From a virus, in the IMG/VR virus record IMGVR_UViG_3300042882_000268, positions 1 to 21,260 of that record: a stretch of 21,260 nt of DNA, one strand, 5' to 3'. Positions 8,801 through 21,260 of this stretch are shown here, in pieces; position 1 is the first letter of the stretch; the number at the start of each line of letters is the position of its first letter. The position numbers and the translations under genes are program-made. The notes under the pieces are model-generated. The model searched no databases and had not been told where the DNA came from. It saw only the letters and a program-made list of their open reading frames with translations.

Positions 8801-10509
8801 GAAACTATGTTGCCAGAAGTCTTGGACTTAATGCTTGGACTAGTCGTGGTTACCCAGTTAATGGTAAGGGTGGTTTGTATATTGACGGATCATCCACGCC
8901 TGTTGCTCCTGGTGCCGCTACATCAGTTCAAACAAGTTATAATCTATATGTTATTAATAGAGCAAATGGTAATGTTGTGTTTAGTAACTACTATGATTTG
9001 TTCTCAGCAGCATCTACATACGGTCCATTACTAGCAAGTAAGTTGAACTCGTTGGATAGTAATAACGTCATCGTTCTAACAACATTCGATGAACCTAGTT
9101 ATTATCATTTAACTTATGGTGTTGCAAATGCTGTTTATCGCTGCGGTGGATCTAGAAGCACATTTGCTGGTACATATTTTCCACCAGCAGCATGGGGTGA
9201 TACTACATGGCTATTAGCAAATCTATCTGATACAAGAGTTCAACAGTGGAAGTTTAGATCAGCATATGTTCTTGTCGGTATCCCTGGTCTAGGTGAAGGA
9301 ACAGGTCTTGAGAGATATGTTGGACCCGCTGATTCTAGTAATGAAAGCATTGCGGAAGTATCATTCTCTATTAGAGATGGATATGTAACTGGACTTCCGG
9401 GTTCTGGATCTACTGGTGAGGCTTCGATCTCACAAGTCTTTTCTACCGCTAATGGACTATCTGCCCAGTGGGCGGTTCAAGCCAGTGTTGGGGGTACTAG
9501 TGGTGGATTGGTATTTACAGGACTACAAAAAGCAGATGGATCGGGTGAAGTCTATACTCTAGATATTAATTCTAATGTTAATATTTACGGCAATCTTGTT
9601 GTTGCTGGTACTATTGACAATGCACAGTTGGCTGATTTCGCAGCCAGTCACTCTGCTATGACATCCGGAACAAAAAATTCTGGTATTGCATCTGTTGATA
9701 TTCGTGCAAATTCTCGTGTAGGTATATTTGCTTCTTATTCTGGATCAAACGATTTGAATCTGTCTGGTGGTAAATTGACTGTTTATGCTGACGGATATAA
9801 AGCACTAATCACACCATTACAGACATCAGGAGCCCTTACTACTCCAGTTACGACTATGACTGTATTCTCTGGTGTGTATCCTACAGGTAAGATTGCTCTA
9901 GCAGGTAGCGTAGATCAATCAAATTATTATTCATATTATTATGAGCAAACAAACTGGGAATATGTCTGTGCGTATGGTTGTGCCTGGTTGCCTGTCACAC
10001 GTGGTTATACCACTAACTATGTCGGTGCATGGGCCTTTGATGGTAGTGTTACATCAACATGGATAGCAAATTGGTCAAATACTGCAAAGGCCTGGATTCA
10101 ATATCAATTCACAACACAACAACAAGTCAGTAATGTTACGTTGATGGCATACTCAAGTGCTGCTGGTGGTACGGCTGCAAGAGCGCCAAAATCGTTGACT
10201 ATTGAAGGATCTAATAATAGAACTTCTTGGGTTGTTCTGAACACTATCAACAATTTGATCAACTGGGGTGATCAAGAAATCAGATATTTACCAACAGCAA
10301 CTTCAAATTCATATAACAATTGGAGAGTTAATGTAACTTCAGTTGTATCGGGCGCAGAAACATATCTCAACATGGCAGAAATCGGATTTATGATATATAC
10401 ACCTGTGCTGACATTCCCAAGACAAGTTCAGTTTTACGCTGATGTTGAAGGTGCCGCATCAACACCAACTGGATCTACAACAGTATATATAGTAGAACTA
10501 TCAAAATAA
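2809..10509 (+). CDS. Giant repetitive tail-fibre protein with two ILEI/FAM3-like and one discoidin-like domain
   Basis: This 2566-residue, Asn/Ser/Thr/Ala-rich protein has no signal peptide or membrane segment and is best read as a long host-recognition fibre. Order by residue: 1-100, N-terminal region with IVNFNLNGNAVFSVDTAGYVF, probably the attachment part; about 200-350, VNTIYGITNT repeats; 445-1346, 25 repeats of 36 residues; about 1347-1530, ILEI/FAM3-like domain 1; 1553-1984, 12 more 36-residue repeats; about 1995-2199, ILEI/FAM3-like domain 2; about 2204-2278, a DUF1983-like part (AQWAVQAS...VNIYGNLVVAGTI); about 2366-2537, a discoidin (F5/8C)-like domain; then a final beta segment. 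Regular hydrophobic residues in the repeats suggest a trimeric helical shaft, with globular sugar-binding domains as beads and tip. Translation is coupled to the PAAR gene by ATGA; a fibre chaperone candidate follows. Confidence 0.88.
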   Translation: MTVRIDNLTRIWANSNTDLVGLGMNITSTGHGANSKIVNFNLNGNAVFSVDTAGYVFYGGGAVSNSTISNSLVANSIVSNSGLFSTLSVGNTNFQDLLDAIYNANSNTYSAAADILALSQNANARFAYLESLANGLSHSVNGAYFSANTRANNLANSINAYSNTMNIVYTLYNVSYQASNIGIAAAYGAANNIYYTLNTYTGIINTQVNTIYGITNTIYQTVNTGISQVYGQVNTIYGITNTALQTVNNVTQVISGQVNSIYGIVNSSYGYVNTAVSTINQQTNSVYQSVNSIYGITNTSTSLIYGQANIVYNQVNTIYGITNSAITTVYTAANSVYATTNTIYGIVNNSIDVFGQNYNNAYAQIVDISERTNAAVSTIYNTTNAASQVANAQIAGALGLTNNVFSLANSIFTYANGVSNTVGNNYTYFLSETQSLTNTNIAITARIDTLSAYSNANASSIAANISTLAATYVTGNTAVSARVDSLSSYSNTNAASQGANIATLATTVTTANSALSLRIDNLGAYTNTNNQSLAANVSTLALAYTSGNTALATRIDNLSAYSNTNAQTLAANVATLSQAYTSGNSALAIRIDNLSAYSNTNSATQSANVFQLVSAFTNSNSSIALRIDGLASYANTNAASLAANVSTLATTVVTGNTALASRIDSLSSYSNTNAQSLAANVSTLTAAYTTGNSAIATRVDNLSAYSNTNAASLAANVNTLAASYVTGNSALAVRIDNLSSYSNTNSSQQSANISTLASTFTTANSSLALRIDGLSSYSNTNSQSLAANVSSLTAAYTSGNTALATRIDNLGVFSNTNNQSLAANINTLAASYVTGNSALATRIDNLGTYSNTNAQTLSANVNTLASSYVSGNSALATRIDNLGTFSNTNNQTMAANVNTLAASYVSSNSAITLRIDGMSSYSNTNAASLGANIATLATTVVAGNTALATRIDGISSYSNTNAQTLAANVNTLAASYVSGNSALATRIDSLSVYSNTNAAQQSANISTLAATYVTGNSALSLRIDNLGAYTNTNAASLAANISSLASAYTSDNTAIAIRIDSFSTFANNSANNNLISANVQTLVQAFSNSNTALSNRIDSLSAYSNTNAQVLSANVNTLAASYVSGNTALATRIDNLSTYSNNNNQTMAANVNTLAASYVSGNSALAIRIDNLSAYSNNNSAQQSANVTSLVSAFTNANSSITLRIDGMSSYSNTNAASLGANIATLATTVVSGNTALATRIDNLSAYGNTNNQLMSANINTLAATYVSGNSALSTRIDNLSSYGNTNNQLMAANINTLAASYVTGNSALATRIDNLSSYSNTNAQALSANISTLAATYTSSNSAFSLKLDTLSASFNNSIGNVRSFTVVSEGFQSTIPGTPGLFINGSQVSANSPSRSYNVWTIERSNAAVVAFSTFDVYSSGVNASNMALYLNGLDSTKLVAISTYDEPLTNRLTNGLDSAMYRCGASRIVFGSADFKLRSAYILVGIPGLGEGSGVETYSGAVNNDANAYSTFSFSIRDGFPVGLSGIALTSANISSLATTVVTSNSALSLRLDNLSSYANTNAASLGANISTLASTVVTGNSALATRIDNLSAFGNTNNQTMAANINTLAASYVTGNSALAVRIDNLGSYSNTNSQTLAANVNTLASSYVSGNTALATRIDNLGVFSNTNNQTMAANINTLAASYVSSNSAMSIRIDGLSSYGNTNSQTLAANINTLAASYVSGNTALATRIDNLGVFSNSNNQTMAANINTLAASYVSGNTALATRIDTLSTFSNTNNQTMAANINTLAASYVSGNTALATRIDNLGVFSNNNNQTMAANINTLAASYVSGNTALATRIDTLSTFSNTNNQTMAANINTLAASYVSGNSALATRIDNLGVFSNTNNQTMAANINTLAASYVSGNTALATRIDNLGVFSNTNNQTMAANINTLAASYVSGNTALATRIDNLGAYSNANARSLAANVSTLTAAYTTSNSALASSITTLTTRVGNVRNYVARSLGLNAWTSRGYPVNGKGGLYIDGSSTPVAPGAATSVQTSYNLYVINRANGNVVFSNYYDLFSAASTYGPLLASKLNSLDSNNVIVLTTFDEPSYYHLTYGVANAVYRCGGSRSTFAGTYFPPAAWGDTTWLLANLSDTRVQQWKFRSAYVLVGIPGLGEGTGLERYVGPADSSNESIAEVSFSIRDGYVTGLPGSGSTGEASISQVFSTANGLSAQWAVQASVGGTSGGLVFTGLQKADGSGEVYTLDINSNVNIYGNLVVAGTIDNAQLADFAASHSAMTSGTKNSGIASVDIRANSRVGIFASYSGSNDLNLSGGKLTVYADGYKALITPLQTSGALTTPVTTMTVFSGVYPTGKIALAGSVDQSNYYSYYYEQTNWEYVCAYGCAWLPVTRGYTTNYVGAWAFDGSVTSTWIANWSNTAKAWIQYQFTTQQQVSNVTLMAYSSAAGGTAARAPKSLTIEGSNNRTSWVVLNTINNLINWGDQEIRYLPTATSNSYNNWRVNVTSVVSGAETYLNMAEIGFMIYTPVLTFPRQVQFYADVEGAASTPTGSTTVYIVELSK
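3424..3855 (+). repeat. N-terminal VNTIYGITNT coding repeats of the fibre
   Basis: Within the fibre gene the peptide VNTIYGITNT and close variants (VNSIYGIVNS, VNSIYGITNT, TNTIYGIVNN) recur about eight times. The first three copies are 25 residues (75 bp) apart, the next spacing is 32 residues, so spacing changes by one heptad. The pattern of Val/Ile/Tyr at 3-4 spacing suggests a coiled-coil shaft different from the 36-residue array downstream. Confidence 0.75.
4141..6846 (+). repeat. Array 1: 25 tandem 108-bp units coding 36-residue fibre repeats
   Basis: Units read roughly T-R-I-D-N-L-S-x-Y-S-N-T-N-A-x-x-L-A-A-N-V-x-T-L-A-A-x-Y-V-x-G-N-x-A-L-A. The span is exactly 25 x 108 + 6 bp: unit 18 (near residues 1057-1094) carries two extra codons in an N-N-S-A-N-N-N stretch. 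Invariant or nearly invariant positions are RID, the NTN core, AN, L and GN/SN. Units are diverged (a handful of substitution types) except for local close pairs such as units 14 and 22. Thirty-six residues equal five heptads plus one, so a coiled coil would need a stutter in each unit. Confidence 0.95.
6871..7395 (+). other. ILEI/FAM3 (GG)-like domain, copy 1, inside the fibre gene
   Basis: After the GNVR junction the protein leaves the repeat pattern. It shows the order known from ILEI/FAM3 and the POMGNT1 stem: G-L-F-I-N-G, then YNVWTIERSNAAVV with FDVYSS, then L..LDSTKLVAISTYDEPLT, then a C-G-A-S-R segment, and RSAYILVGIPGLGEG, ending at SFSIRDGFPVGL. POMGNT1's stem of this fold binds sugars, so a lectin role is plausible. 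The domain call is by pattern memory only. Confidence 0.72.
7465..8760 (+). repeat. Array 2: 12 tandem 108-bp units coding 36-residue fibre repeats
   Basis: This array spans exactly 12 x 108 bp, preceded by a partial unit (about 7410-7464). Units at 8005-8652 are nearly uniform in protein (NNQTMAANINTLAASYVSGN), and those at 8005-8436 alternate NLGVFSN and TLSTFSN, a 216-bp two-unit period. Units at 8437 and 8545 code identical peptides but differ at ten bases, all silent. The uniformity is greater than in array 1 and suggests more recent expansion. Confidence 0.95.
8791..9405 (+). other. ILEI/FAM3 (GG)-like domain, copy 2, inside the fibre gene
   Basis: This copy also starts with GNVR and follows copy 1 in order: GGLYIDG, YNLYVINRANGNVVF, YDLFSA, L.SLDSNNVIVLTTFDEP, YRCGGSR, RSAYVLVGIPGLGEG and SFSIRDGYVTGLPG. 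It carries an insertion of roughly 20 extra residues rich in Trp, Pro and Leu between the CGGSR segment and RSAYVLVG (about nt 9170-9245). Copy 1 and copy 2 are clearly related but well diverged outside these motifs. Confidence 0.72.
9905..10425 (+). other. Discoidin (F5/8 type C)-like domain at the fibre C-terminus
   Basis: Residues about 2366-2537 show the F5/8C order: GAWAFDGSVTSTWIA, AWIQYQFTTQQQVSNVTLMAY, P.SLTIEGSNNRTSWVVLN, EIRYL, YNNWRVNVTSV and an N-M-A-E-I-G-F end strand. Domains of this fold bind carbohydrate (CBM32-type) or lipid through loops. An unusual Tyr-rich loop with a C-x3-C pair (CAYGC) is inserted before the first motif, near nt 9925-10015. Confidence 0.75.
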
Positions 10510-11039: not shown

Positions 11040-11044
11040 GATAC

Positions 11045-11072
11045 ATCGATAGCCGAAAGGTATCGGTTTTTT
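11045..11072 (+). terminator. GNRA-loop hairpin followed by a T-run, at the promoter's expected start point
   Basis: CGATA(G)CC pairs with GGTATCG around a GAAA loop (stem 11047-11054 with 11059-11065, one bulged G), followed by six T at 11067-11072. The shape is that of an intrinsic terminator closing the structural operon. The stem starts at almost the expected first base of the hsp20 promoter transcript, so it would also form the 5' end of that RNA, as an attenuator or a stabilising cap. Confidence 0.65.
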
Positions 11073-11096
11073 AATCTCGCTTAATAGGAGAACACA

Positions 11097-11645
11097 ATGT
11101 CAAACATTAAATGGAACACAGAAAACTTCGGTATCCCAGAATCCCTAGCCCGTAATCTAATCGGATTCGATACCATGCTGGAAAACTTCCGTCGTGCTAA
11201 TGAGCAACTGGCTAAAGCATCTAACTATCCTCCTTATAATATCAAAAAGATTGATGAAGAACATTTCGTGATTGAGATGGCTGTTGCTGGTTTCGGCAAG
11301 TCCAATCTTGATATTGAGTTGAAGGATGGTGAACTAACAATCACTGGTTCACATGATGCTGAAGAAGGTGATTACATCTATCAAGGCATTGCCAATCGTG
11401 CCTTTACTCGCAAGTTCACTCTTGCTGACACTGTTGTTGTAAAAAATGCGGAGTTAGTCAATGGTCTACTTAAAGTCGCTCTTGAACGTTATGTCCCCGA
11501 GGAAAAGAAAGCGAAGAAAATCGACATCATGGATCCGTTCGGTGTTCAGGAAACGACTAAGACACTATTGACCGAAGGTGCTAAGGCATGGACAGATACA
11601 ATGTCTACCATGATGGGCACTAACACCAAAACAAAGACTAAATAA
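11097..11645 (+). CDS. hsp20: Small heat-shock protein Hsp20 (alpha-crystallin family)
   Basis: This 182-residue IbpA-type chaperone holds unfolding proteins in an ATP-independent way in the cytoplasm. Visible features: YPPYNI at 44-49, then the alpha-crystallin domain with HFVIEMAVAGFGKSNLDIE, G.LTITG, IANRAFTRKFTLAD, V..AELVNGLLKVALER and VPEEKKAKKI, and the I-x-I motif IDI at 142-144. Phage Hsp20 genes are common in T4-like cyanophages. It carries an unusual 38-residue tail after I-x-I, ending in a Thr/Lys stretch. AGGAG at 11086-11090 is six bases before the ATG. With its own promoter and a terminator on each side it looks like a one-gene unit. Confidence 0.95.
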   Translation: MSNIKWNTENFGIPESLARNLIGFDTMLENFRRANEQLAKASNYPPYNIKKIDEEHFVIEMAVAGFGKSNLDIELKDGELTITGSHDAEEGDYIYQGIANRAFTRKFTLADTVVVKNAELVNGLLKVALERYVPEEKKAKKIDIMDPFGVQETTKTLLTEGAKAWTDTMSTMMGTNTKTKTK

Positions 11646-11710: not shown

Positions 11711-12454
11711 ATGGAACTCGTGATTACAAAACCCATTACAGTTATTACTCCTACAGTTGGCTCTCCTAAACTTTGGGACGCTATTGAAAGCGTTAAAGCA
11801 CAAACTTATCCTTGTAAGCATCTTATTGTTCTAGATGGTCCTGATGTTAAGGCCGATAGATTGCCTTGGGCATATAATGGTTATGAGAACTGTCACATCG
11901 TAAAGACACCAGAGAACACAGGTGCTAATGGATTCAATGGTCAGCGTATCTATGCTGCATATCCTCACCTAGTCAATTCGGATTACATTGCTTTCCTTGA
12001 TGAAGATAACTGGTTCGAACCGAATCATATTCAGTCACTAGTCGAAACGATTGAACGTAAGAACCTAGACTTTGCATACTCACTTCGCAAAATATTCTCT
12101 CCCACTAAGAAGTATGAATGTAATGATGAATGTGAAAGCCTAGGTAAGTGGCCAATCTTTTTGTCACGTGGCTCACAGTATGGTAATCAATTTCTAATCG
12201 ACACATCTGCCTATCTGTTCAAGAGAGAGTTCATCCAGAAAACTTGTCATCTATGGCATTCTGGTGCATGGGGTGAAGATCGTCGTTACTACTATGCGGT
12301 TAAGGACCATGCTAAGTATGATACGAATGGTGATTATACACTATGTTACCGTCTAGATGGTAACCCTAAATCAGTATCTAGAGAATTTTTTATCGAAGGT
12401 AACAAAACACAAGAAGCATATTATGGAGGAAACTTTCCATGGCGAAAGACTTAA
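11711..12454 (+). CDS. Family 2-type glycosyltransferase
   Basis: This 247-residue protein has the GT-A fold signature of GT2 enzymes: ITVITPTVGSPKLWDAIESVKAQTYP at about residues 9-34, the VLDGPD strand, a NTGANGFNGQR loop, and FLDEDNW with the metal-binding acidic group D97-E98-D99. A W-G-E-D-R segment near 190 is a plausible catalytic base region. It would transfer a sugar from a nucleotide donor; donor and acceptor are unknown. No membrane segments are seen, so it is cytosolic. The ATG has GAGG at 11700-11703. It is the first gene of the glycan cassette, and its end overlaps the next gene by 16 bases. Confidence 0.88.
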   Translation: MELVITKPITVITPTVGSPKLWDAIESVKAQTYPCKHLIVLDGPDVKADRLPWAYNGYENCHIVKTPENTGANGFNGQRIYAAYPHLVNSDYIAFLDEDNWFEPNHIQSLVETIERKNLDFAYSLRKIFSPTKKYECNDECESLGKWPIFLSRGSQYGNQFLIDTSAYLFKREFIQKTCHLWHSGAWGEDRRYYYAVKDHAKYDTNGDYTLCYRLDGNPKSVSREFFIEGNKTQEAYYGGNFPWRKT

Positions 12455-13329
12455 TTATAGGTGGAGCAAGCGGCTACGATTGGGACAAAGTTAAGTATTG
12501 GGTTAACTCAATCAAAGCAACTGGTTTCAAAGGTGACATTGTTCTAGTTGCAACAAATATTACGGTTGAGACATTACAAAAACTAGCAGAGAACGGTGTC
12601 AAGGTTCATGGGTATGGTCGTAAGACTGACACAGGCTTTGTCAATGATACAAAGAACGCACCACACGTAGAACGTTTTATTTACATCTGGGATTACTTGC
12701 AAAAGAATCCTGACTATCGTTTTGTTACTGTTACTGATACTCGTGACGTTATCTTTCAGAATGATCCTTCACCCTTTCTAGAAAAGCATCTATTCGGTAG
12801 AACACTCATTGCATCCTCAGAAGGCTTACTGTATAAGGACGAGCCATGGGGCAAACAGAATATGAGAGAAACGTTTGGTGACTATCTATACGAGACGTTC
12901 AAAGAATATCTAATCTGTAACGTGGGTGTCATATCTGGTTACCACGAAGATGTTAGAGACTTTATGTTGCTGCTATTTCAGCAGTCAATCAATCGTCCGA
13001 TTCCTATCGTTGATCAGGCAGTCTTTAACTTTCTTATCAACCAGTGCCCGTTCAAGGATGAAGTGCTAGTAGCAAGAAACAGTCTAGCATGGGCTGCCCA
13101 ACTAGGTGTTACCAAGCAAGCAATCGAAGCAGGTGCAGGTGATATCGGACTATCCGTTAGACAGAATCCTGCTTTACTTGATGAATATATAAAGTTATAC
13201 CAAGACGAACAGCCTATCATCGATGGTGCTACAGTCAGAACAGAACATAATGAGTTTTGTATTGTGCATCAATGGGATCGCATCCCATCATTGAAAGCAG
13301 AGATTGAGAGAAAATATGGAAACAATTGA
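12439..13329 (+). CDS. Putative glycosyltransferase (GT-A-like, TDTRDV motif)
   Basis: The 296-residue product starts with a beta strand and Gly-rich turn (LIIGGASGYDW), has a GDIVLVAT strand, and around residue 100 a D-T-R-D-V-I-F-Q segment (D100, D103) that resembles the acidic motif of several nucleotide-sugar transferases. Later it has an ICNVGVISGYHEDV segment and a P-I-V-D-Q-A-V-F-N-F region as in GT8/GT77-like enzymes, where the acceptor site usually contains a V-D-Q triplet. GGAGGA at 12425-12430 precedes the ATG, inside the end of the GT2 gene. I call it a transferase with moderate confidence and cannot give a sugar. Confidence 0.72.
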   Translation: MAKDLIIGGASGYDWDKVKYWVNSIKATGFKGDIVLVATNITVETLQKLAENGVKVHGYGRKTDTGFVNDTKNAPHVERFIYIWDYLQKNPDYRFVTVTDTRDVIFQNDPSPFLEKHLFGRTLIASSEGLLYKDEPWGKQNMRETFGDYLYETFKEYLICNVGVISGYHEDVRDFMLLLFQQSINRPIPIVDQAVFNFLINQCPFKDEVLVARNSLAWAAQLGVTKQAIEAGAGDIGLSVRQNPALLDEYIKLYQDEQPIIDGATVRTEHNEFCIVHQWDRIPSLKAEIERKYGNN

Positions 13330-14026
13330 GCAGGTTGATGGTATATTCTTTATTAGTAGTTGTCTAAACGCTAAGATAAAGAATGTATATACACTAGAAC
13401 AACGTTTTGCCCACACGATAGAGACGATTGAATCTATCAACAAGCATTGTCCAAAAAATATAAAAATTCTACATGACTCCTCAGTTGAAAAGCCTGACCA
13501 AGGTTATTTTGATTCACTCGCTGCAAATGGTATTGTTGTGATCTATACTGGTGAGAATCGAGATATTAAAGAACTAACCAGTCATGGTATGACTAGTGCT
13601 GCTGAATTGCTGTCAACCATGATAGCAATGACTTGGTATCATGATAATATCAAGGGAAAGTATACCTCTTTAAGAGCATATAAGATTTCTGGTAGATATA
13701 GGTTAAATGATGAGTTCATCTTACAAGATGATCGTTTCAAGGATGCCTTTGTTCACAATATGACTGTCGATTCATATATGCCACAAGAAAGACGTATTCA
13801 AACTGGAGCGTTTAAGGCATATGGTACTCGTCTGGTTCATTGGGATTATAATCTAATGGACACTTATTGCGAGGCTCTTCCTAAGATGTTTAATGATTGT
13901 GTTACCTTAGGTATTGATGCTGAACATGCTTATTGGAAACATCTACATACTTATAAGAACGTCGATCTCCCTAAGATCGGTGTTGAAGGATGGATTGCAC
14001 CTCTTGGTATTTTTGAAAAGGACTGA
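13316..14026 (+). CDS. Uncharacterised protein of the glycan cassette, possibly a glycosyltransferase
   Basis: From ATG 13316 (GAGAG at 13306-13310 just upstream) it codes 236 residues; an upstream in-frame TTG at 13304 would add four. I do not recognise a named family. Visible features: an N-terminal strand-loop (VDGIFFISSCLN), a helix with TIETIESINKHCPKNIKILHDSS, then a Y.SLRAYKISGRYRLNDEF segment in the middle, and W-D-Y-N-L and G-I-D-A-E-H-A-Y-W late in the chain. The arrangement with alternating strands and helices and the K-I-S-G-R-Y segment recalls small sugar-transferase-like proteins near polysaccharide genes. Overlap with the preceding gene (14 bases) and a 6-base gap to the next show operon membership. 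Confidence 0.8.
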   Translation: METIEQVDGIFFISSCLNAKIKNVYTLEQRFAHTIETIESINKHCPKNIKILHDSSVEKPDQGYFDSLAANGIVVIYTGENRDIKELTSHGMTSAAELLSTMIAMTWYHDNIKGKYTSLRAYKISGRYRLNDEFILQDDRFKDAFVHNMTVDSYMPQERRIQTGAFKAYGTRLVHWDYNLMDTYCEALPKMFNDCVTLGIDAEHAYWKHLHTYKNVDLPKIGVEGWIAPLGIFEKD

Positions 14027-14032
14027 TATATT

Positions 14033-14932
14033 ATGAGACTGTTAAAACTCGGATTCACAGATACCCTCCCTAGCATTGCTAACTACTTTGTTGAAGCATT
14101 GAAAACTCGATATGAGATTCATATCGATAATGATCAGCCTGACTATCTAATCTTTGGTGATAAGAACTTCGGTAACAACAATAATAGTTTTAATGACAAG
14201 AATTGTATCAAGATTTTCTTCACCGGTGAGAATGAACGTCCATGGGACTATCATTGTCACTATGCTATATCGTTTGATCATATTGAAGATGAACGTTGCT
14301 TCCGACTTCCGATCTATGTTCTCTATAACTTTGATCATAAGTTGATTGAGAATCGCAATCGTTCTCTTGAGGACTTGACCGAAGAAAAGAAGTTCGCTTC
14401 CTTTCTTGTAAATAACCCTCGTTGTGAAAAGCGTAATGCTTTCTATCAGCGTTGCCTAAACTATAAGGACTCTGGTTCTGCTGGTAAGTATCTTAACAAC
14501 ATTGGTGGTCCACTAGGTGGTACTCCAGTTGATAAGGTAAACTTTATGAATGGATATAAGTTCAATATCACATTCGAAAACTCTAGTTACCCAGGCTATG
14601 CAACAGAGAAGTTGATGGAAGCCCTATGTGCTAAGACAATCCCACTGTATTGGGGCAGCCCTACTGCTCCTATGGAGTTTAATCGCAAAGCATTCCTTAA
14701 CTGGCATGACTTTCAAGATGATGATGCTTTTTGGGAAGCGGTTGTTGAACTAGATAACAACCCTAAGTTGTATGAAGAAATGTATATGCAACCTGTATTC
14801 CCTAATGATGAAATTACTAAGTTCTTTGATAGAGAACGTTTTTTGAATTGGTTTGATAGACACGTATATAAAGGAGCGATTAATGTCCAGCACAGCCAAC
14901 AGAGCCCTGATCATTTCACCTACCGGGTGTAA
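14033..14932 (+). CDS. GT10-family fucosyltransferase homologue
   Basis: This 299-residue protein matches Helicobacter pylori alpha-1,3-fucosyltransferase along its length: FFTGENERPW...HYAISFD near residues 62-82, a LP-I-Y-V-L-Y segment, K.FASFLVNNP...RNAFYQ.C, then F181-E-N-S, G188-Y-A-T-E-K193, IPLYWGSP at 203-210, and an FN.KAFLN..DF segment. GT10 enzymes move L-fucose from GDP-fucose to GlcNAc or Glc, with inversion; the E in FENS and the YxTEK region bind the nucleotide. It lacks the C-terminal heptad repeats and amphipathic tail of the H. pylori enzyme and is a compact catalytic unit. Donor could be another GDP-sugar. The 3' end overlaps the next gene by 50 bases. An AAAGGA at 14016-14021 is the likely ribosome site. 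Confidence 0.92.
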   Translation: MRLLKLGFTDTLPSIANYFVEALKTRYEIHIDNDQPDYLIFGDKNFGNNNNSFNDKNCIKIFFTGENERPWDYHCHYAISFDHIEDERCFRLPIYVLYNFDHKLIENRNRSLEDLTEEKKFASFLVNNPRCEKRNAFYQRCLNYKDSGSAGKYLNNIGGPLGGTPVDKVNFMNGYKFNITFENSSYPGYATEKLMEALCAKTIPLYWGSPTAPMEFNRKAFLNWHDFQDDDAFWEAVVELDNNPKLYEEMYMQPVFPNDEITKFFDRERFLNWFDRHVYKGAINVQHSQQSPDHFTYRV

Positions 14933-15623
14933 TATACTAGAGCATGAAGATTATGAGAAGGGTAAGCATTGGCGTATGGCACATCCAGAACGCACATATG
15001 ATACCTGTGTTGTAGTATTCAATGAAGATTTTGAACCAGAACCTGGTACGTATGACATGATCATTCGTAAGAAGGGTTATAAGTATAAACTGATACCACA
15101 AATTGCTGACATGATCAAGTGGGAAAACTATGACTATATCGGATGTTGGGATGATGACTATGCTACTGACATTCGTTCTGTTAATCGTTCACTAGAACTT
15201 GCTAGACAGTTTGACTTCCGTTTCTTTCAGCAGGCAACCACATCTTATCAGTTCTTTGATTGTCTAAAGCACAACCCAGAATATGTGTTCACGGAAACAA
15301 ACTTCATTGAGTCTGGTGTTCCTTTCTTTAGAAATGATATCTTTAGAAAGTTTCTACATTTTCTAAATGAATATGATTATGTCGAATCAGAATGGGGCAT
15401 CGATAAGATCCTATGTCATCTGTTTCAAGGAACAGCACACGTTGTTCATGAAACAACTGTTAGACATATGCGTCCTGAAAGTTGGTATGATAAGACAAAT
15501 GCACATCATGAAATGGAATTATTGATGCGTGATTTCTTCCCTAAGTATATGAAGAAACATTTTGACATCGATTATCAGTATTCGGATATCCAGCAAACAT
15601 TGAGAGGATACAAACGTGGATAA
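14883..15623 (+). CDS. DUF707-like protein, putative glycan enzyme
   Basis: From ATG 14883, set by AAGGAG at 14870-14875, it codes 246 residues. Pattern and order resemble DUF707: a TCVVVFNEDF strand, Y.YKLIPQIADM, the YDYIGCWDDDY segment with acidic D90-D91-D92, a R-F-F-Q-Q-A-T stretch, FTETNFIESGVPFFRND, and a late W171-G-I-D174 motif. The D-D-D triad followed by an E-x-G-x-P region and a W-G-x-D motif is that of a GT-A-like transferase with metal site, although DUF707 has no established reaction that I know. An upstream in-frame ATG at 14853 lacks a ribosome site. Overlaps neighbours on both sides (50 and 8 bases). Confidence 0.75.
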   Translation: MSSTANRALIISPTGCNILEHEDYEKGKHWRMAHPERTYDTCVVVFNEDFEPEPGTYDMIIRKKGYKYKLIPQIADMIKWENYDYIGCWDDDYATDIRSVNRSLELARQFDFRFFQQATTSYQFFDCLKHNPEYVFTETNFIESGVPFFRNDIFRKFLHFLNEYDYVESEWGIDKILCHLFQGTAHVVHETTVRHMRPESWYDKTNAHHEMELLMRDFFPKYMKKHFDIDYQYSDIQQTLRGYKRG

Positions 15624-16410
15624 TCTAATTCGTGAAATTGACTGGGCGGAAGTAAAGCAAAGTTTCGTAAACGCAACTCCGTTCAACCACGTTGCGATTG
15701 ACAACTTCTTCCTGCCAGAAGTGGCAGCACAGATTTCATCAGAGTTCCCATCCTTTGATGACCCATCGCTCGGTCATTATAACAATGCTATTGAGCAGAA
15801 GAAGTGTTATAACAAGTGGGATAAGTTCCCCAAGACAACATATCAGGCTTTCACGATGTTGGGTCGTGAAAGTTTCCTAAGCAAGATGCGTTATATGATT
15901 GATGAACCCAATCTATGGATTGATTATGGATTGAATGGTGGTGGATGGCATATGCATGGTCCAGCAGGTAATCTTAATGTTCATCTAGATTATAACATTC
16001 ATCCTAAGTTAGGTGAGCAGAGAAAACTAAACATTATTATATACATGACACCAGAATGGAACAATGCATGGGGTGGTGGTCTGGAACTGTGGACACATGA
16101 TCCTGAAACAAAACGGCCAAAAGCACTTGACAAACTCGTAGATAATGTCTATAATCGTGCTGTTATATTCGATACAACACAAAATTCATGGCACGGATTA
16201 CCAAAGCATCTGACTTGTCCTGAAGGTGTGTATAGAAAGAGTTTGGCCGCTTATTATGTCCGTCCTGCTCCAGAAGGATCTGATCCTCGTGGTAAAGCAT
16301 TGTTCGCACCACGTGAAGATCAAAAGAATGATCCAGCAGTAGAGGAACTGATTCGTAAACGTGCCGACATATATACTGCTGAACAATACCATGCTGGTGA
16401 AAAGAATTAA
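15616..16410 (+). CDS. 2-oxoglutarate/Fe(II)-dependent oxygenase
   Basis: This 264-residue protein has the full facial triad of the superfamily: H123-L-D125 in NVHLDYN, the distal H193 in WHGLPKH, and R207 (YRKSLAAYY) 14 residues on to hold 2-oxoglutarate. The strand order between (RKLNIIIYMTP, GGGLELW, RAVIFDT) is the typical double-stranded beta helix. Such enzymes hydroxylate or oxidise a carbon of a protein, nucleotide or sugar, using O2. T4-like phages often carry several of unknown substrate. GTG 15616 is the likely start, with GAGAGGA at 15602-15608; no better in-frame start precedes the conserved FNHVAIDNF segment. Its place between transferase and nucleotide-sugar genes suggests a glycan or glycoprotein substrate, but that is inference. 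Confidence 0.9.
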   Translation: MDNLIREIDWAEVKQSFVNATPFNHVAIDNFFLPEVAAQISSEFPSFDDPSLGHYNNAIEQKKCYNKWDKFPKTTYQAFTMLGRESFLSKMRYMIDEPNLWIDYGLNGGGWHMHGPAGNLNVHLDYNIHPKLGEQRKLNIIIYMTPEWNNAWGGGLELWTHDPETKRPKALDKLVDNVYNRAVIFDTTQNSWHGLPKHLTCPEGVYRKSLAAYYVRPAPEGSDPRGKALFAPREDQKNDPAVEELIRKRADIYTAEQYHAGEKN

Positions 16411-16421
16411 GGAGAGTATGA

Positions 16422-17468
16422 ATGACTAAAACACTATTGGTTACTGGTGGTGCAGGCTTTATCGGTCACCATGTTATTGACTTGTTCCTCAAGAAAACTG
16501 ATTGGAACATTGTCTCTATTGATCGTCTAGATTATTCAGGTAATCTAAATCGTCTTGATGATGTTGTCCGTCGTCATGATCCTGAGACACGAAAGCGAGT
16601 GAAAGTTGTCTATGGTGACCTTCGTGCAGAGGTATCCGATCTACAAAGAAACTTTATTGGTGATGTTGATTACATTCTCCATATGGCTGCATCTTCACAC
16701 GTTGACCGTTCTATCGAAGATCCTATGTCATTCGTTATGGATAACGTTGTGGGTACAGTCAACATTCTAAACTATGCTCGTAAGTGTAAGAACCTAAAAC
16801 GTTTCATCTATTTCTCCACAGACGAAGTATTCGGTCCTGCTCCTGGTACTATCACATATGCAGAACGTGATCGTTATAACTCTACTAATCCTTATTCAGC
16901 ATCTAAGGCTGCCGGCGAAGAAATGTGTGTATCGTTCGAGAACACATATAAGTTACCAATCTTCATTACACATACAATGAATGTCTTTGGCCAGCGTCAG
17001 CATCCAGAGAAGTTTCTACCAATGTGTATTCGTAAGGTTCGTAATGAAGAAACAGTCACCATTCACTCAGATCCATCCAAGACTGTTCCTGGTTCACGTT
17101 TCTATATTCATGCTGCTGATGTTGCTGATGCAATGTATTTCTTGCTACATCTAACACCAGAGCAGGAAGCAAAGGTTCATGTGCCTGATTATGGTGGAGC
17201 CAAGTGTCCTAAGTTTAACGTTGTTGGTAAAGAAGAAATCAACAATCTAGAACTTGCTAAGTATGTTGCCGGAGCAGAAGGCAAGGAACTAAACTATGAA
17301 ATGGTTGACTTCCATTCTTCACGACCAGGTCATGATCTTCGTTATGGACTATCTGGTGAGTATATGAAGGAACTTGGTTGGGAACCAAAATATACATTGC
17401 GTGAACGTATTAAAGAAGTGGTCGACTGGTCACTTGCTAACCCAGAATGGATTGAGGTAACAGAATGA
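16422..17468 (+). CDS. NDP-sugar 4,6-dehydratase, RmlB type
   Basis: This 348-residue extended SDR enzyme has the NAD-binding motif G9-G-A-G-F-I-G15, the AASSHVDRSI segment, S132-T-D-E135 with Thr133, Asp134 and Glu135 of the dehydratase site, and the catalytic Y158-x3-K162. The D-E pair marks 4,6-dehydratases rather than plain epimerases, and the AASSHVDRSI segment points to the dTDP-glucose (RmlB) side over GDP-mannose or UDP-GlcNAc enzymes; nucleotide preference remains uncertain. The product would be a 4-keto-6-deoxy sugar, the precursor of rhamnose, fucose-like and branched sugars. AAGGAG at 16409-16414 lies before the ATG. ATGA overlap with the next gene. Fits the downstream C-methyltransferase, which acts on keto-deoxy sugars. 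Confidence 0.9.
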   Translation: MTKTLLVTGGAGFIGHHVIDLFLKKTDWNIVSIDRLDYSGNLNRLDDVVRRHDPETRKRVKVVYGDLRAEVSDLQRNFIGDVDYILHMAASSHVDRSIEDPMSFVMDNVVGTVNILNYARKCKNLKRFIYFSTDEVFGPAPGTITYAERDRYNSTNPYSASKAAGEEMCVSFENTYKLPIFITHTMNVFGQRQHPEKFLPMCIRKVRNEETVTIHSDPSKTVPGSRFYIHAADVADAMYFLLHLTPEQEAKVHVPDYGGAKCPKFNVVGKEEINNLELAKYVAGAEGKELNYEMVDFHSSRPGHDLRYGLSGEYMKELGWEPKYTLRERIKEVVDWSLANPEWIEVTE

Positions 17469-18046
17469 ACGGTGTAACATATACTATCGTAGATCCTATT
17501 AAAGATCCTGAAATCACCTGGATATCTGGTAGGGATGTCATGCCTCTCATTGAGGCACTTCCTACTGATAGCCCTGTTGGTATTGAGATCGGTGTTGATG
17601 AAGCACCAACTAGTTGGTACCTACTCAAGAGCATTCCAGGACTAAGACTATATGGTGTTGACCCATATCTAGGCTATCAAGATTGGTATCCTGGTGGGTG
17701 GATTAGTCAGGAATCAAATAATCAGAAGTATGAAAAGATGCGTGAACGTCTTGCACCATTTGGTGATCGATGGAAACATTATCGTCTAACGTCTGATGAT
17801 GCATTGCCATTGTTTCAGGATGATTCATATGACTTTATCTTCATTGATGGCTTGCATGAGTATGATCAAGTGCTAAAGGATTGTCGTAACTACTGGTCTA
17901 AGATTAAGAGCGGTGGTGTCTTTTCTGGACATGACTATAAAGTAATTGAAGGTGTCGGTCGTGCAGTTGACGAATTTGCTGCTGAAGTAGGAGCAACGGT
18001 TAACTATCTACCAGACAACGACGCCTGGTATTGGATTAAGCCTTAA
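17465..18046 (+). CDS. Class I SAM-dependent methyltransferase (Methyltransf_24-like)
   Basis: This 193-residue protein has a SAM-binding first motif GIEIGVDEAPTS (G39-E41-G43) with D66 in YGVDPY as the ribose-binding acidic residue, and a DFIFIDGLHEYDQV segment (D123, D128, H131) characteristic of the small methyltransferases near sugar biosynthesis genes, where Asp/His can hold a metal. It ends with GGVFSGHDY and a short C-terminal strand (YLPDNDAWYW). Substrate is unknown; an O-methylation of a sugar hydroxyl is the natural guess in this setting. The ATG overlaps the dehydratase stop (ATGA), with GAGG six bases or so before. Confidence 0.85.
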   Translation: MNGVTYTIVDPIKDPEITWISGRDVMPLIEALPTDSPVGIEIGVDEAPTSWYLLKSIPGLRLYGVDPYLGYQDWYPGGWISQESNNQKYEKMRERLAPFGDRWKHYRLTSDDALPLFQDDSYDFIFIDGLHEYDQVLKDCRNYWSKIKSGGVFSGHDYKVIEGVGRAVDEFAAEVGATVNYLPDNDAWYWIKP

Positions 18047-18061
18047 TAATTGGAGTTTGCT

Positions 18062-19264
18062 ATGGATTGGGAATGTCGTCCTATTAAGAAGTGTATTGCC
18101 TGTGGCTCAAGCGATCTGGTTCCTGTATTGGATCTTAACTCTCAGCCACTAGCAAACTCTTATAAGAAAAATAAGAATGAACCACAGGCAGAGTATCCTC
18201 TTGCTATCAATAGATGTGAGCATTGCTTTCATGTGCAGTTGACACATCAGGTTAATCCTGAACTCATGTTTAAGGATTATGCCTATGTGTCTGGTACTGC
18301 TAAGACATCATTGGTATACTTTGATTGGTTGATGCAGCAAATCGTCAAGCAATATGGTAAGACTCCGAAGAACGTTTTAGATATCGGCTGCAACGATGGT
18401 TCATTTCTAAATGCATGGGGTGGAACTGGTGCAAGCACTTATGGTGTTGATCCTGCTGAAAACCTCCATCATGTATCATCTAAGAACCATAGTGTTCATT
18501 GTGGCTTCTTTACCGGTAAAGAGTTTGGTGATAAGAAGTTTGATGTTATCACTTGTTTAAATGCATTTGCTCATAATGCGGATCAGTTATCATTGCTCAA
18601 GAATATTGGCAAGCGTATGCATGAGGACAGTCTATTGTTCTGTTCCGTGTCTCAGGCTAATATGATTTTGAATGGTGAGTTTGATACAATCTACCACGAG
18701 CATCTATCATTCTATAATATCAAGTCTGCTAGAGCGTTGTGTGAACGTGCTGGTATGCATCTAGTTGATGTTATTAGACATACTATTCATGGTGGTAGTT
18801 ATATCTTTGTTATATCTAAAGTCAAAGAAGCCAAGGTTCTTGTTCAAAATCTTATCGATGAAGAAGATATCATGGGCTTGTATGATCCTAAGACATATAT
18901 CAAATACACCGAGAAGTGCTATGACGTTGCTGGTAAGTTTGGTGATGCCATTCGTAAGTATCGCAAAGATGGTTATTGTGTGATTGGTTATGGTGCACCA
19001 GCAAAGGGTAATACTCTTATGAACTTTGCTAATGAGGGACCGGACTTTATCTTTGAAGATAATCCATTGAAGCAGGATCTATACACACCTGGCATGTCGA
19101 TTGAGATTCGTCAGCCTGCATGGTTGTTTCCACCAGATGCTAAGATACTCTGGGTTCCACTAGCATGGAACTTCTATGGTGAAATTGTTGATAAGATTAA
19201 GTTTCGTCGTGGTGCTTACAAAGATGCCTTCCTAAGATACTTCCCAGAGTTTAAAGTTGATTAA
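18062..19264 (+). CDS. NDP-keto-sugar C-methyltransferase (NovU/TylC3/TcaB9 type)
   Basis: From ATG 18062 (GGAG at 18058-ish region upstream, TTGGAG at 18050-18055) it codes 400 residues with all three family parts: an N-terminal zinc module with C11-x2-C14 and C52-x2-C55; a SAM domain with D107-I-G-C-N-D-G113; the Y211-H-E-H-L-S-F-Y catalytic segment; and a C-terminal Rossmann-like part starting with GYGAPAKGNTLMNF. Relatives add a methyl group to carbon 3 of dTDP-4-keto-deoxy sugars to make branched sugars such as mycarose or noviose; the H-E pair is the proposed base. With the 4,6-dehydratase upstream this predicts a branched deoxy sugar. Full-length compared with the 400-420 residues usual in the family. 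Confidence 0.92.
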   Translation: MDWECRPIKKCIACGSSDLVPVLDLNSQPLANSYKKNKNEPQAEYPLAINRCEHCFHVQLTHQVNPELMFKDYAYVSGTAKTSLVYFDWLMQQIVKQYGKTPKNVLDIGCNDGSFLNAWGGTGASTYGVDPAENLHHVSSKNHSVHCGFFTGKEFGDKKFDVITCLNAFAHNADQLSLLKNIGKRMHEDSLLFCSVSQANMILNGEFDTIYHEHLSFYNIKSARALCERAGMHLVDVIRHTIHGGSYIFVISKVKEAKVLVQNLIDEEDIMGLYDPKTYIKYTEKCYDVAGKFGDAIRKYRKDGYCVIGYGAPAKGNTLMNFANEGPDFIFEDNPLKQDLYTPGMSIEIRQPAWLFPPDAKILWVPLAWNFYGEIVDKIKFRRGAYKDAFLRYFPEFKVD

Positions 19265-20039
19265 AGCATATTATCACATACACCTCACAGACGATCCTTT
19301 AATCTGGACTTCTATCTTTCTAGAACAAATGAAATGTATTGAAGATTCTGGATTAAAGGCTCAACTCAATGAAATGAATATTACATGCATTGCACAAGAT
19401 GACGAGCGTATCGGAATGTTTGTGCAGTTGTGTAAGACATATGATATTCCTATCAAACTACAAATGGTTAGAAACCCATTTGACAATGATAAGGATATGC
19501 TATACAATAGAAACAGTGATAGTTCATTTACGGAAAGTATCACACTTAATAGGGTATGGGAAGACTGTAAGAATGAGGACATGAAAGTCCTATACTTTCA
19601 TTCTAAAGGATCAACCTCATACTCAACTAATGTTAATCTGGTCAACATAACCAAGCATAAGGAATATTATTATTGGCGTTCCTTTATGAATTGGGCTGTC
19701 TTAGATCGGTGGGCATGGTGTGAAAACGCATTAGAAAACCATGACATTGCTGGTGGTGATTATAAAGAAGTGCCGTCACCACATTTCTGTGGTAACTTCT
19801 GGTGGGCTACATCTAATCATATTAGACAGTTGCCTAATCCTCTAGATAAAACATGGTGGCATAAGTTGCAAGAAACGACGACAGACCCATGGATCAAACA
19901 AGCCCCAGTTAGAATGTATGATGAATTTTGGATAGGATCTAAAGAAAACATCAAAGCATATAATGTTATTGACTTAAAAGGTAGAAGTCCCGTGAGTGAT
20001 TGTATTACACAGTTGGATTGTGAAAGGTTATTTCGATGA
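19257..20039 (+). CDS. Putative glycosyltransferase-like protein (unnamed family), TTG start
   Basis: This 260-residue protein follows a pattern I have met in viral and bacterial glycan clusters but cannot name: an N-terminal YYHIHLTDD..W..IFLEQMKCIEDSGL, a middle ESITLNRVWEDCK..DMKVLYFHSKGSTS segment, a WRSFMNWAVLDRW helix, a HDIAGGDY strand and a HFCGNFWWATSNHIRQLPNP segment. The strand-helix order fits a nucleotide-sugar transferase. The only start that keeps the conserved N-terminus is TTG 19257, inside the end of the previous gene; later ATG codons from 19332 would remove it. The 3' end overlaps the following gene (ATGA). No strong ribosome site, so translation is probably coupled. Confidence 0.75.
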   Translation: MIKAYYHIHLTDDPLIWTSIFLEQMKCIEDSGLKAQLNEMNITCIAQDDERIGMFVQLCKTYDIPIKLQMVRNPFDNDKDMLYNRNSDSSFTESITLNRVWEDCKNEDMKVLYFHSKGSTSYSTNVNLVNITKHKEYYYWRSFMNWAVLDRWAWCENALENHDIAGGDYKEVPSPHFCGNFWWATSNHIRQLPNPLDKTWWHKLQETTTDPWIKQAPVRMYDEFWIGSKENIKAYNVIDLKGRSPVSDCITQLDCERLFR

Positions 20040-21260
20040 AAGTAGCGGTTATTGGTGCCGGTGGGCACGTTGGGTTCCCATTCTCTTGTGTGATTGCCAA
20101 TGCAGGCCACACTGTATATGGGATTGATATCAACCAATCTGCGGTTGATAAACTGAATAAAGGTATTGTGCCATATATCGAAGAAGGTGCTGCTGATTGT
20201 CTCAGAGACAATCTAAATAAAGAACGACTATTATTCACAACCGATTTTGACTTTATTGAGGATGTTGATGTCGTTGCCATTATGATCGGTACACCCGTAG
20301 ATGGAGAAGGCAATGCAAGACTTGATGATCTTTTTAATTTTCTTGACATTAATCTTATTCCTCGTATGAAGAAACACCAGTTGATTGTTCTTAGATCAAC
20401 TGTATCACCTGGTACAACCGAGGTTCTTCGTAAGCATATTAACAATGCTAAACAGTGGGTCGAGGGCATTGATTACTTTCTAGTATTCTGTCCTGAGCGT
20501 GTGCTTCAAGGCAGGTCTATCATTGAAACAACCAAACTACCACAGATCGTTGGTGCGTTCAATGATTTTTCTTATAAGTTCGCTAAGGATTTCTTTAGCA
20601 CTTTCATTACTAATCAAATCTTCCAACTGACTCCAAAAGAGGCAGAACTTGGCAAGTTGATGACCAATATGTATCGTTATGTTACTTTTGCGTTTGCCAA
20701 TGAAATGTGGATGATTGGTGAAAAGCATGGAGTGAACATTGACAAGGTTATTGACGCATGTAACTACGATTACCCTAGGCTGTCTGTTCCTCATCCTGGT
20801 CCTAATGTTGGAGGTCCTTGCCTATTCAAAGATGGTCGTTTTCTTCTTTCTGATATTCCTTTCGGCGATCTTATTCAAACTGGCTTCCTTATCAATGAGG
20901 GCATGCCAGAGTATGTCTTTAACCGTGTCAAGGAACTCAACCCTCAGATAAGCAAGGTGTTGATCCTTGGTGCTACCTTCAAGAAGGGTTGTGATGATAC
21001 TCGTAACAGCCTATCATTCAAGATGCGTAAGGTTTGTAAGAAGCATGGTGTTCAGTCTTGGATGATCGATCCATATCACATTGAGGATTTGAATGTGCCT
21101 CGTGAAGAAGAATTTGACGCTGTTATTGTAATGACGCCACACGACGAGTTTATTGATGGTAAGGCAATGGCATTTGACATTTCGCTATTCAGACAAGATT
21201 GTATTGTCGCTGATGTTTGGAAGATGTTTCCAGAAAGTAAACTAAGTAATACGGGCATCT
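20036..21260 (+). CDS. UDP-glucose/UDP-ManNAc/GDP-mannose 6-dehydrogenase family, 3' end outside window
   Basis: The frame is open from ATG 20036 to the right edge (408 residues seen, no stop). It starts KVAVIGAGGHVGFP, the NAD-binding strand and loop, with GID ending the second strand. The RSTVSPGTTEVL segment, K207 in GKLMTNMYRYVTFAFANE, and C262 in GGPCLFKDG are the active-site groups of this family: Cys forms the thioester in the two-step NAD-dependent oxidation of the sugar C6 to a uronic acid. The C-terminal NAD domain (VLILGATFKKGCDDTRNS) is also there. The GGPC.FKD type and the 'FKxGxDDTR' pattern fit the WecC branch as well as UDP-glucose dehydrogenases, so substrate is uncertain. 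Length so far is normal for the family. Overlaps the previous stop (ATGA). Confidence 0.92.
   Translation, partial: MKVAVIGAGGHVGFPFSCVIANAGHTVYGIDINQSAVDKLNKGIVPYIEEGAADCLRDNLNKERLLFTTDFDFIEDVDVVAIMIGTPVDGEGNARLDDLFNFLDINLIPRMKKHQLIVLRSTVSPGTTEVLRKHINNAKQWVEGIDYFLVFCPERVLQGRSIIETTKLPQIVGAFNDFSYKFAKDFFSTFITNQIFQLTPKEAELGKLMTNMYRYVTFAFANEMWMIGEKHGVNIDKVIDACNYDYPRLSVPHPGPNVGGPCLFKDGRFLLSDIPFGDLIQTGFLINEGMPEYVFNRVKELNPQISKVLILGATFKKGCDDTRNSLSFKMRKVCKKHGVQSWMIDPYHIEDLNVPREEEFDAVIVMTPHDEFIDGKAMAFDISLFRQDCIVADVWKMFPESKLSNTGI

Follow-up and report, generated by a model that had tools for sequence, protein, structure and literature searches.

What does a bacteriophage make with a long, unbroken run of sugar genes, and onto what does it transfer the product? 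This question is raised by the IMG/VR virus record IMGVR_UViG_3300042882_000268, whose complete 21,260 bases (here called the window) are a fragment of a T4-like myophage from environmental DNA. Its positions 11711-21259 carry 11 intact genes on the same (+) strand, named A to K here, which overlap by 4-50 bases or are separated by gaps of 3-11 bases. Judged from its genes, this cassette is a functional-looking variant of the 'LPS (lipopolysaccharide) gene cluster' of T4-like phages. We propose, with a probability of about 45%, that it serves late, cytoplasmic glycosylation of a virion protein rather than remodelling of the host surface. The acceptor is the least certain part of this proposal, a protein of the phage's own particle being the most likely candidate. 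We favour it because the cassette is preceded by late-type signals, comes without export machinery and exchanges its genes in the manner of an antigen locus, and because a cyanophage carries a related gene pair behind its tail genes.

Enzymes encoded by the cassette

The sequence-only reading of this DNA had described eleven tightly packed genes on one strand, forming a phage operon for sugar synthesis and glycan assembly, and domain, family and fold matches bear out both points (Table 1). Of its list of enzymes, the RmlB-type dehydratase, the two methyltransferases, the 2-oxoglutarate (2OG) oxygenase and the GT10 enzyme stand; its at least two and maybe five further transferases are refined to a prediction of six in all, the GT10 enzyme included. 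All families were assigned by homology or fold. G is predicted to be an RmlB-type 4,6-dehydratase: it matches GDP_Man_Dehyd in Pfam (9.5e-54), reaches 244 bits with TIGR01181 (below the family cut-off of 365) and is 67.6% identical to a gene labelled 'nucleotide-sugar epimerase' in the sugar cluster of cyanophage S-SM2. I had been taken for a NovU-type C-methyltransferase; a sugar C-methyltransferase it remains, with the prediction refined to a 3-C-methyltransferase of the TylC3/TcaB9 family, as the nearest solved structures are 3-C-methyltransferases. It matches Methyltransf_13, Methyltransf_23 and Methyltransf_14 in Pfam (1.4e-19 to 2.8e-26), combines in one chain a zinc-binding N domain (PF08421), an S-adenosylmethionine domain (PF13489) and a C-terminal domain (PF08484), and aligns over 374 residues with the D-mycarose 3-C-methyltransferase TylC3 (3e-55). 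The alignment to 4rv9 includes the YHEH motif. TylC3 and TcaB9 serve antibiotic sugars, after steps such as 2,3-dehydration; no domain for such steps was found by Pfam in A-J.

The remaining tailoring enzymes are less closely defined. H matches Methyltransf_24, gave no PDB match in the profile search and is possibly a sugar O-methyltransferase. F matches 2OG-FeII_Oxy_3 (PF13640) and PF13661, and its nearest PDB relative is OGFOD1 (1e-4). K, previously read as a UDP-sugar 6-dehydrogenase, is indeed a nucleotide-sugar dehydrogenase by homology (TIGR03026, 282.6 bits versus a cut-off of 189.8), but it is closer to UDP-ManNAc dehydrogenases than to UDP-glucose 6-dehydrogenase, and thus WecC/Cap5O-like.

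The six predicted glycosyltransferases are A, B, C, D, E and J, of which C and J are identified by their fold, and B and E by family or motif. D matches FucT_N (8.5e-19) and Glyco_transf_10 (8.1e-14) in Pfam and the alpha-1,3-fucosyltransferase 2nzw in the PDB (1.4e-30). B belongs to a phage transferase family of PHROGs and has a TDxxD motif that is invariant in 20 sequences, with no significant match in the PDB profile search. E has an invariant DDD (D89-D91, in 19 sequences) and no match in Pfam, PHROGs or NCBIfam, nor a significant one in the PDB. C and J lack a family match; their structure models, which begin at or just past the start codon used, have a predicted local distance difference test (pLDDT) score of 92.3 and 90.7, respectively. 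With Foldseek, the model of C is closest to a galactofuranosyltransferase (3.6e-6, template modelling (TM) score 0.53), followed by glycogenin and the GT6 enzyme BoGT6a, and that of J to GtrB (9.1e-5, TM 0.41) and the xyloside xylosyltransferase XXYLT1 (3.1e-4).

We infer the substrates, the order of transfer and the late timing of the following pathway. G would produce a 4-keto-6-deoxyhexose nucleotide, I would add a methyl branch at its C3, and H, perhaps together with epimerases encoded downstream, would complete the sugar, while K would provide a uronic acid donor. The soluble enzymes A, B, C, D, E and J would add sugars sequentially onto a cytoplasmic acceptor; A and B may act first (they head the operon, and B is the most widely kept), and D would add fucose, with host GDP-fucose as donor. 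If the acceptor is a virion protein, the outcome would be a phage with a lineage-specific sugar coat.

Table 1. Predicted genes of the cassette, the preceding gene and nearby transcription signals (window positions; lineages as defined in the text).
Feature	Start	End	Strand	Remarks
Perfect sigma-70-type promoter of the hsp20 unit, TTGACA-18-TATAAT	11010	11039	+	12/12 in 7/7 lineages
hsp20, gene preceding the cassette	11097	11645	+	phrog_432, 2.7e-37
Late-promoter-like motif CTAAATA	11638	11644	+	overlaps hsp20 stop codon, 73 nucleotides before A; junction motif in 6/7 lineages
Terminator-like hairpin between hsp20 and A	11655	11688	+	-20.6 kcal/mol, z -3.6
A, GT2-family glycosyltransferase	11711	12454	+	PF00535, 3.3e-12
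B, predicted glycosyltransferase, invariant TDxxD	12439	13329	+	overlap of 16 with A; phrog_1579, 3.4e-11
C, predicted GT-A-fold glycosyltransferase	13316 (ATG) or 13304 (TTG)	14026	+	overlap of 14 or 26 with B
D, GT10 alpha-1,3-fucosyltransferase-like	14033	14932	+	gap of 6 after C
E, predicted glycosyltransferase, invariant DDD	14883 (ATG)	15623	+	overlap of 50 with D
F, 2-oxoglutarate/Fe(II) oxygenase	15616	16410	+	overlap of 8 with E; PF13640, 3.3e-13
Perfect sigma-70-type promoter-like sequence within F	16127	16155	+	possible internal early promoter
G, dTDP-glucose 4,6-dehydratase type (RmlB)	16422	17468	+	gap of 11 after F
H, class I methyltransferase	17465	18046	+	overlap of 4 with G; PF13578, 4.4e-15
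I, predicted sugar 3-C-methyltransferase (TylC3/TcaB9 family)	18050	19264	+	gap of 3 after H
J, predicted GT-A-type fold, probable glycosyltransferase	19257	20039	+	overlap of 8 with I
Sigma-70-type promoter-like sequence within J	19480	19508	+	11/12; 12/12 in L002, L003
K, nucleotide-sugar 6-dehydrogenase, WecC/Cap5O-like	20036	21259	+	overlap of 4 with J; open at record end

Recurrence, gene exchange and selection

Relatives of I are encoded in 506 stretches of viral contigs, the best 80 of which were kept (handles L001 and so on), giving 81 sequences with the window. The cassette is not a chance assembly, since further viral contigs carry these genes again and in a related order. Flanking DNA is sufficient in 44 of the 81 (near-identical contigs such as L069/L070/L074 and L001/window included), and the numbers of these in which a gene accompanies I at a distance of up to 9 kb are as follows: G, 43; B, 38; C, 29; A, 28; E, 25; J, 17; H, 16; D, 11; K, 10; and F, 7. 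These counts lean to close relatives, as the loci were picked for having I and the 80 best of the 506 were kept. Of the 70 sequences that extend more than 1.3 kb upstream, 47 have G as the gene immediately preceding I. At least two genomic sites are occupied, one beside hsp20 and the other between a gp41-like helicase gene (identified in L016) and a gene of the cytidyltransferase family. Additional genes in other cassettes encode a DegT aminotransferase, a hexapeptide-repeat protein (under the Pfam cut-off) or a nucleotidyltransferase-isomerase fusion. In L009, L041 and similar loci this fusion, of a nucleotidyltransferase with an RpiB-type isomerase, stands downstream of I beside HAD and PfkB-like genes, and possibly represents a second sugar pathway. 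The C gene of the window has about one third identity to that of L002 and L003 and a different position in the operon, which indicates that the C slot has been exchanged. As far as gene content tells, a conserved core of G and I with a swappable remainder is the pattern of an antigen locus. G itself is, compared with its neighbours, unusually conserved among the window and L002-L004 (93-97% identity; synonymous difference at the low end, 0.40-0.48), as if it had been exchanged recently between phages.

The frames are intact, and the ratio of nonsynonymous to synonymous substitutions (dN/dS) of the eleven genes, 0.027-0.201 in the L003-L004 pair, indicates purifying selection similar to that on four replication and regulation genes, namely gp62, RegA, dUTPase and Hsp20 (0.046-0.196); synonymous sites are near saturation, pairs without a finite value are omitted, and the pair quoted has finite values throughout. 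Searches of annotated phage records with G, I, B and E returned 291 matching records for G, led by S-SM2, and 8 for I (best 30%), while tblastn against 50,697 phage records gave 9 for B, partial only (up to 66% of its length), and none for E; I, B and E thus have weak, partial or no matches there, unlike G. The bacterial genome context of B was of no further help: its best relatives there reach no more than 38% identity (37% over the full length), a second cassette gene is missing from all of the 13 best bacterial loci (some of them short contigs), and weaker loci have distant matches only, to K, G, D or an epimerase.

Among described systems, the closest are the 'LPS gene clusters' of the T4-like cyanophages S-SM2, P-SSM2 and S-SSM7, likewise same-strand runs of sugar genes in a T4-like phage, and in S-SM2 the likeness extends to the G homologue. 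The S-SM2 stretch differs in its transketolase, alcohol dehydrogenase, kinase and pyrophosphorylase genes, in place of which we find here a predicted 3-C-methyltransferase, a GT10 enzyme, a uronic acid dehydrogenase and six predicted transferases. In DSL-LC02, a metagenome-assembled lake phage with Synechococcus given as host, a 4,6-dehydratase gene adjoins that of a C-methyltransferase 26% identical to I, followed by transferases and an FkbM methyltransferase, with no flippase in the stretch covered; its pathway is of the GDP-mannose/GDP-fucose type, however, the identity is low, and the phage has been discussed for DNA glycosylation and GDP-fucose (PMC10611076). The host-recognition clusters of pelagimyophages, also aquatic T4-like phages, combine transferases with a nucleotide-sugar dehydrogenase (UDP-glucose 6-dehydrogenase), but these genes either share a cluster with tail fibres or are dispersed in pairs and triplets, GT8 is the commonest family, and the accessible part of the text names no C-methyl sugar pathway (PMC7029224). 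Chloroviruses and Megavirinae resemble the cassette in their virus-encoded sugar synthesis and transferases, with clusters of six to 33 genes and clade-specific sugars (PMC10117803, PMC7826918). Giant-virus virions are glycosylated (PMC10117803), as are the capsid and tail tube of mycobacteriophages (PMC12363180, PMC12619734), for which one or two transferases are named (PMC12619734, PMC11256854). In all these viruses the glycans have been seen on particles, whereas the cassette is known here from its genes.

At its downstream border, the near-identical contig L001 has a complete K, followed by an NAD-dependent epimerase and a 553-residue acyl-CoA dehydrogenase. Two long relatives (172 and 169 kb) have the same borders, with hsp20, the cassette, K, one or two epimerases and the acyl-CoA dehydrogenase, plus a few extra genes. 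K of L001 (11987-13219) and K of the window (20036-21259) differ sharply at the 3' end; their overall identity is 91%, versus 98-100% for A-J, a pattern suggestive of recombination at the edge of the cassette. The acyl-CoA dehydrogenase gene (L001 14363-16024) lies directly behind the cassette in several of these phages (6 loci among those kept). Its best bacterial matches, 57% (289 genomes of one class) and 52% (369 genomes of another), the two classes probably being Alpha- and Gammaproteobacteria, are too weak to name a host; 25 phage records match, 6 of them over at least 80% of the length, all Acinetobacter phage MD-2021a (38-41%).

Predicted transcription signals at the cassette head

The first half of the record consists of T4-like genes, and the core families among them (clamp loader, gp62, regA, dUTPase and Hsp20) thus share the window with the cassette; a PAAR protein and a 2566-residue fibre are also encoded there. 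Directly before A lies hsp20, whose unit starts from a perfect sigma-70-type promoter in all seven lineages compared (the window, L002, L003, L004, L007, L008 and L043). The near-duplicates L001 and L005 were left out of this set, as were the more distant L069, L070, L074 and L075, in which the junction between hsp20 and the cassette is absent in this form; the promoter still scores 10/12 in L069 and 8/12 in L075. Perfect promoters of this type number 13 and 16 on both strands of the two long relatives, versus 0 in five shuffles per strand.

Two signals separate hsp20 from A. A terminator-like hairpin occurs at the same place in 7/7 lineages (z -2.1 to -5.5), where six different stems form it, and the late-promoter-like motif [ACG]TAAATA stands at or directly after the hsp20 stop in 6/7. 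L007 has lost its stop-codon copy but has TATAAATA immediately behind. In the two long relatives, [ACG]TAAATA occupies 16 of 36 and 15 of 34 short gaps, respectively (2.2 and 2.3 expected), and it precedes the tail sheath, tail tube, head protease, baseplate and major head genes. Among ten genes behind the motif, hand-picked rather than random, PHROGs assigns eight to head, tail or DNA-end proteins and one to a cytidyltransferase family, and one has no match. TATAAATA, tried as the late promoter of the window, gave no signal (32 sites with at most one mismatch versus 46 expected). We also dropped the idea of hsp20 and the cassette as one early operon, given the hairpin and late motif between them. 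With these two elements in place, the cassette seems to be shielded from early hsp20 transcription and to have a late promoter at its head, and it is probably expressed late in infection, as far as such signals tell.

The hsp20 leader itself (window 11040-11097, about 60 nucleotides) can form two hairpins, as it does in L002, L003, L004, L007, L008 and L043. In the second, an invariant UCUCGCU pairs with the AGGAGA ribosome site in 7/7 lineages, and L069 and L075 have UUGCU before AGGAG. The U(U/C)GCU layout is that of short two-hairpin ROSE-like RNA thermometers (PMC3669281). We therefore predict a phage RNA thermometer from this layout; Rfam gave no ROSE match for the leader (its scan of the window returned two matches, both far under gathering scores), and among the literature matches listed none names an RNA thermometer in a phage hsp20.

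Candidate acceptors of the glycan

A virion protein as acceptor is consistent with what the cassette encodes, namely donor synthesis and several predicted transferases, with no membrane parts. Between virion and host surface, the junction of late motif and terminator leans to late expression. In cyanophage ACG-2014f, moreover, a GT2 gene and a G homologue directly follow the tail collar genes and a gene for a surface-repeat protein.

Several observations weigh against a late glycosylation of virion proteins. Acceptor and glycan are predicted from genes, and soluble transferases can also use host lipid-linked intermediates. G and I alone fall short of a known nucleotide sugar, a 4-ketoreductase being our guess for the downstream epimerases. 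J is the least certain of the six transferases because its fold matches mix glycosyltransferases with sugar nucleotidyltransferases, TarI and IspD scoring alike. As to timing, L004 and its duplicate L005 lack the late motif, and the six of seven junctions are suggestive only, since the motif occupies nearly half of the short gaps in the relatives; coding may contribute to it, as part of it is the hsp20 stop codon. That the hairpin comes after the motif is odd for a leader. Of the 11 loci with cassettes of the B-C-G-I type, at the second genomic site, 10 have the motif behind gp41 and some genes ahead of B, and none has it directly before B; no late motif was found upstream of the cassette in L013, L015, L049, L053, L057, L063 and L067. 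The sigma-70-like sites within F and J, together with one of 11/12 directly before A in L069, speak for some early expression.

The fibre (window 2809-10509), with many similar repeats and 53% Ala, Ser, Asn and Thr, had been named as a possible target. Among the 80 loci and two long contigs, its parts match only the near-identical L001, apart from a weak 33% N-terminal match in L003, and relatives carry the cassette beside hsp20 without the giant fibre, a further point on the unfavourable side. This target is accordingly weakened, and a role of the fibre as dedicated substrate was set aside, as it is not conserved alongside the cassette among the loci searched.

The strongest competitor, which we consider less likely but plausible, is remodelling of the host surface. 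The transferases would then act on host lipid-linked or lipid A-core intermediates, with use of the host flippase and ligase, such that the infected cell no longer binds other phages or that progeny avoid sticking to debris. The families of G, I and K are usual in surface polysaccharide loci, and the early-type promoter-like sites inside the cassette would suit this role. It has been proposed for pelagimyophage glycosyltransferases (PMC7029224), and cyanophage clusters of this kind were named LPS clusters (PMC3037559). Yet neither a flippase nor an initiating transferase turned up in the nine related records covered, nor did any other multi-helix membrane protein of the cassette in the 81 sequences. 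The nine records, some of them fragments, include contigs of 172, 169 and 162 kb and were compared with 14 control genomes: the flippase family PF01943 (Wzx type) and the initiating transferases PF02397 (WbaP type) and PF00953 (WecA type) each had 0/9 matches, versus 13, 9 and 12 positive controls. No membrane-helix-like segment occurs in A-K (no 19-residue hydropathy above 1.69), and among the plus-strand open reading frames of the 81 sequences that lie within 9 kb of I and are 120 residues or longer, only one has three strong hydrophobic segments, unrelated and outside the cassette. This absence is not proof, given that the nine records include fragments and that anchors with a single helix fall outside its scope, but it agrees with the earlier remark that no wzx/wzy-like membrane protein is present. 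By homology, then, the flippase and initiating transferases of a self-contained Wzx/Wzy-type surface polysaccharide locus are missing from these records, and host-surface remodelling would rest wholly on host machinery, since no export or initiation proteins were found. The signals at the cassette head, furthermore, look late, when exclusion of competitors is less useful, and the distant bacterial relatives of B, without a second cassette gene in the best loci, also argue against it.

A host cytoplasmic target, or a small soluble glycoside (e.g., a regulator or storage compound), seems improbable to us. All enzymes look soluble and glycogenin is among the fold matches of C, which would fit, but six transferases and lineage-specific swapping suggest a surface antigen rather than a fixed intracellular target.

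Glycosylation of modified phage DNA bases, as in T4, was another target named by the sequence-only reading, and we give it very little credence. DNA hypermodification can involve phage transferases and 2OG oxygenases, the PHROGs label of the H family is DNA methyltransferase (its Pfam match being the general Methyltransf_24), and one open reading frame behind an early promoter in the 169-kb relative resembles a DNA cytosine methylase, as judged by eye. However, the thymidylate-synthase/dCMP-hydroxymethylase family was found in 0/9 related records, the three long contigs included, and in 9 of the 14 controls, a result on which we set DNA aside as an unlikely target. F matches PF13640 and PF13661 rather than the TET/JBP family; Tet_JBP (PF12851) had 0/9 matches in the records, which is uninformative as the control genomes were silent too. 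C-methyl sugars and a uronic acid are not known to have a role in DNA modification.

That the cassette merely fills the head during headful packaging, or is a functionless acquisition in decay, has the slimmest chance of all: 'stuffer DNA' was raised for cyanophage LPS clusters in a 2010 comparison that left open whether they work (PMC3037559), but the frames are intact, dN/dS is low and G and B accompany I in most loci.

Purifying selection, a core with swappable parts and the lack of a membrane partner together speak against stuffer DNA, and the choice between virion and cell surface becomes testable. Returning to the virion as the favoured target, we tentatively suggest, at somewhat less than even odds, that uncultivated T4-like phages possess an autonomous system of late protein glycosylation that places lineage-specific oligosaccharides with a 3-C-methyl-branched sugar on their virions, its swapped transferases making up a 'serotype' locus. 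If true, this would be the counterpart in bacterial viruses of the glycosylation of chloroviruses and giant viruses. Should the target be the particle, changeable sugar coats would be carried by these phages and would bear on virion adsorption and recognition.

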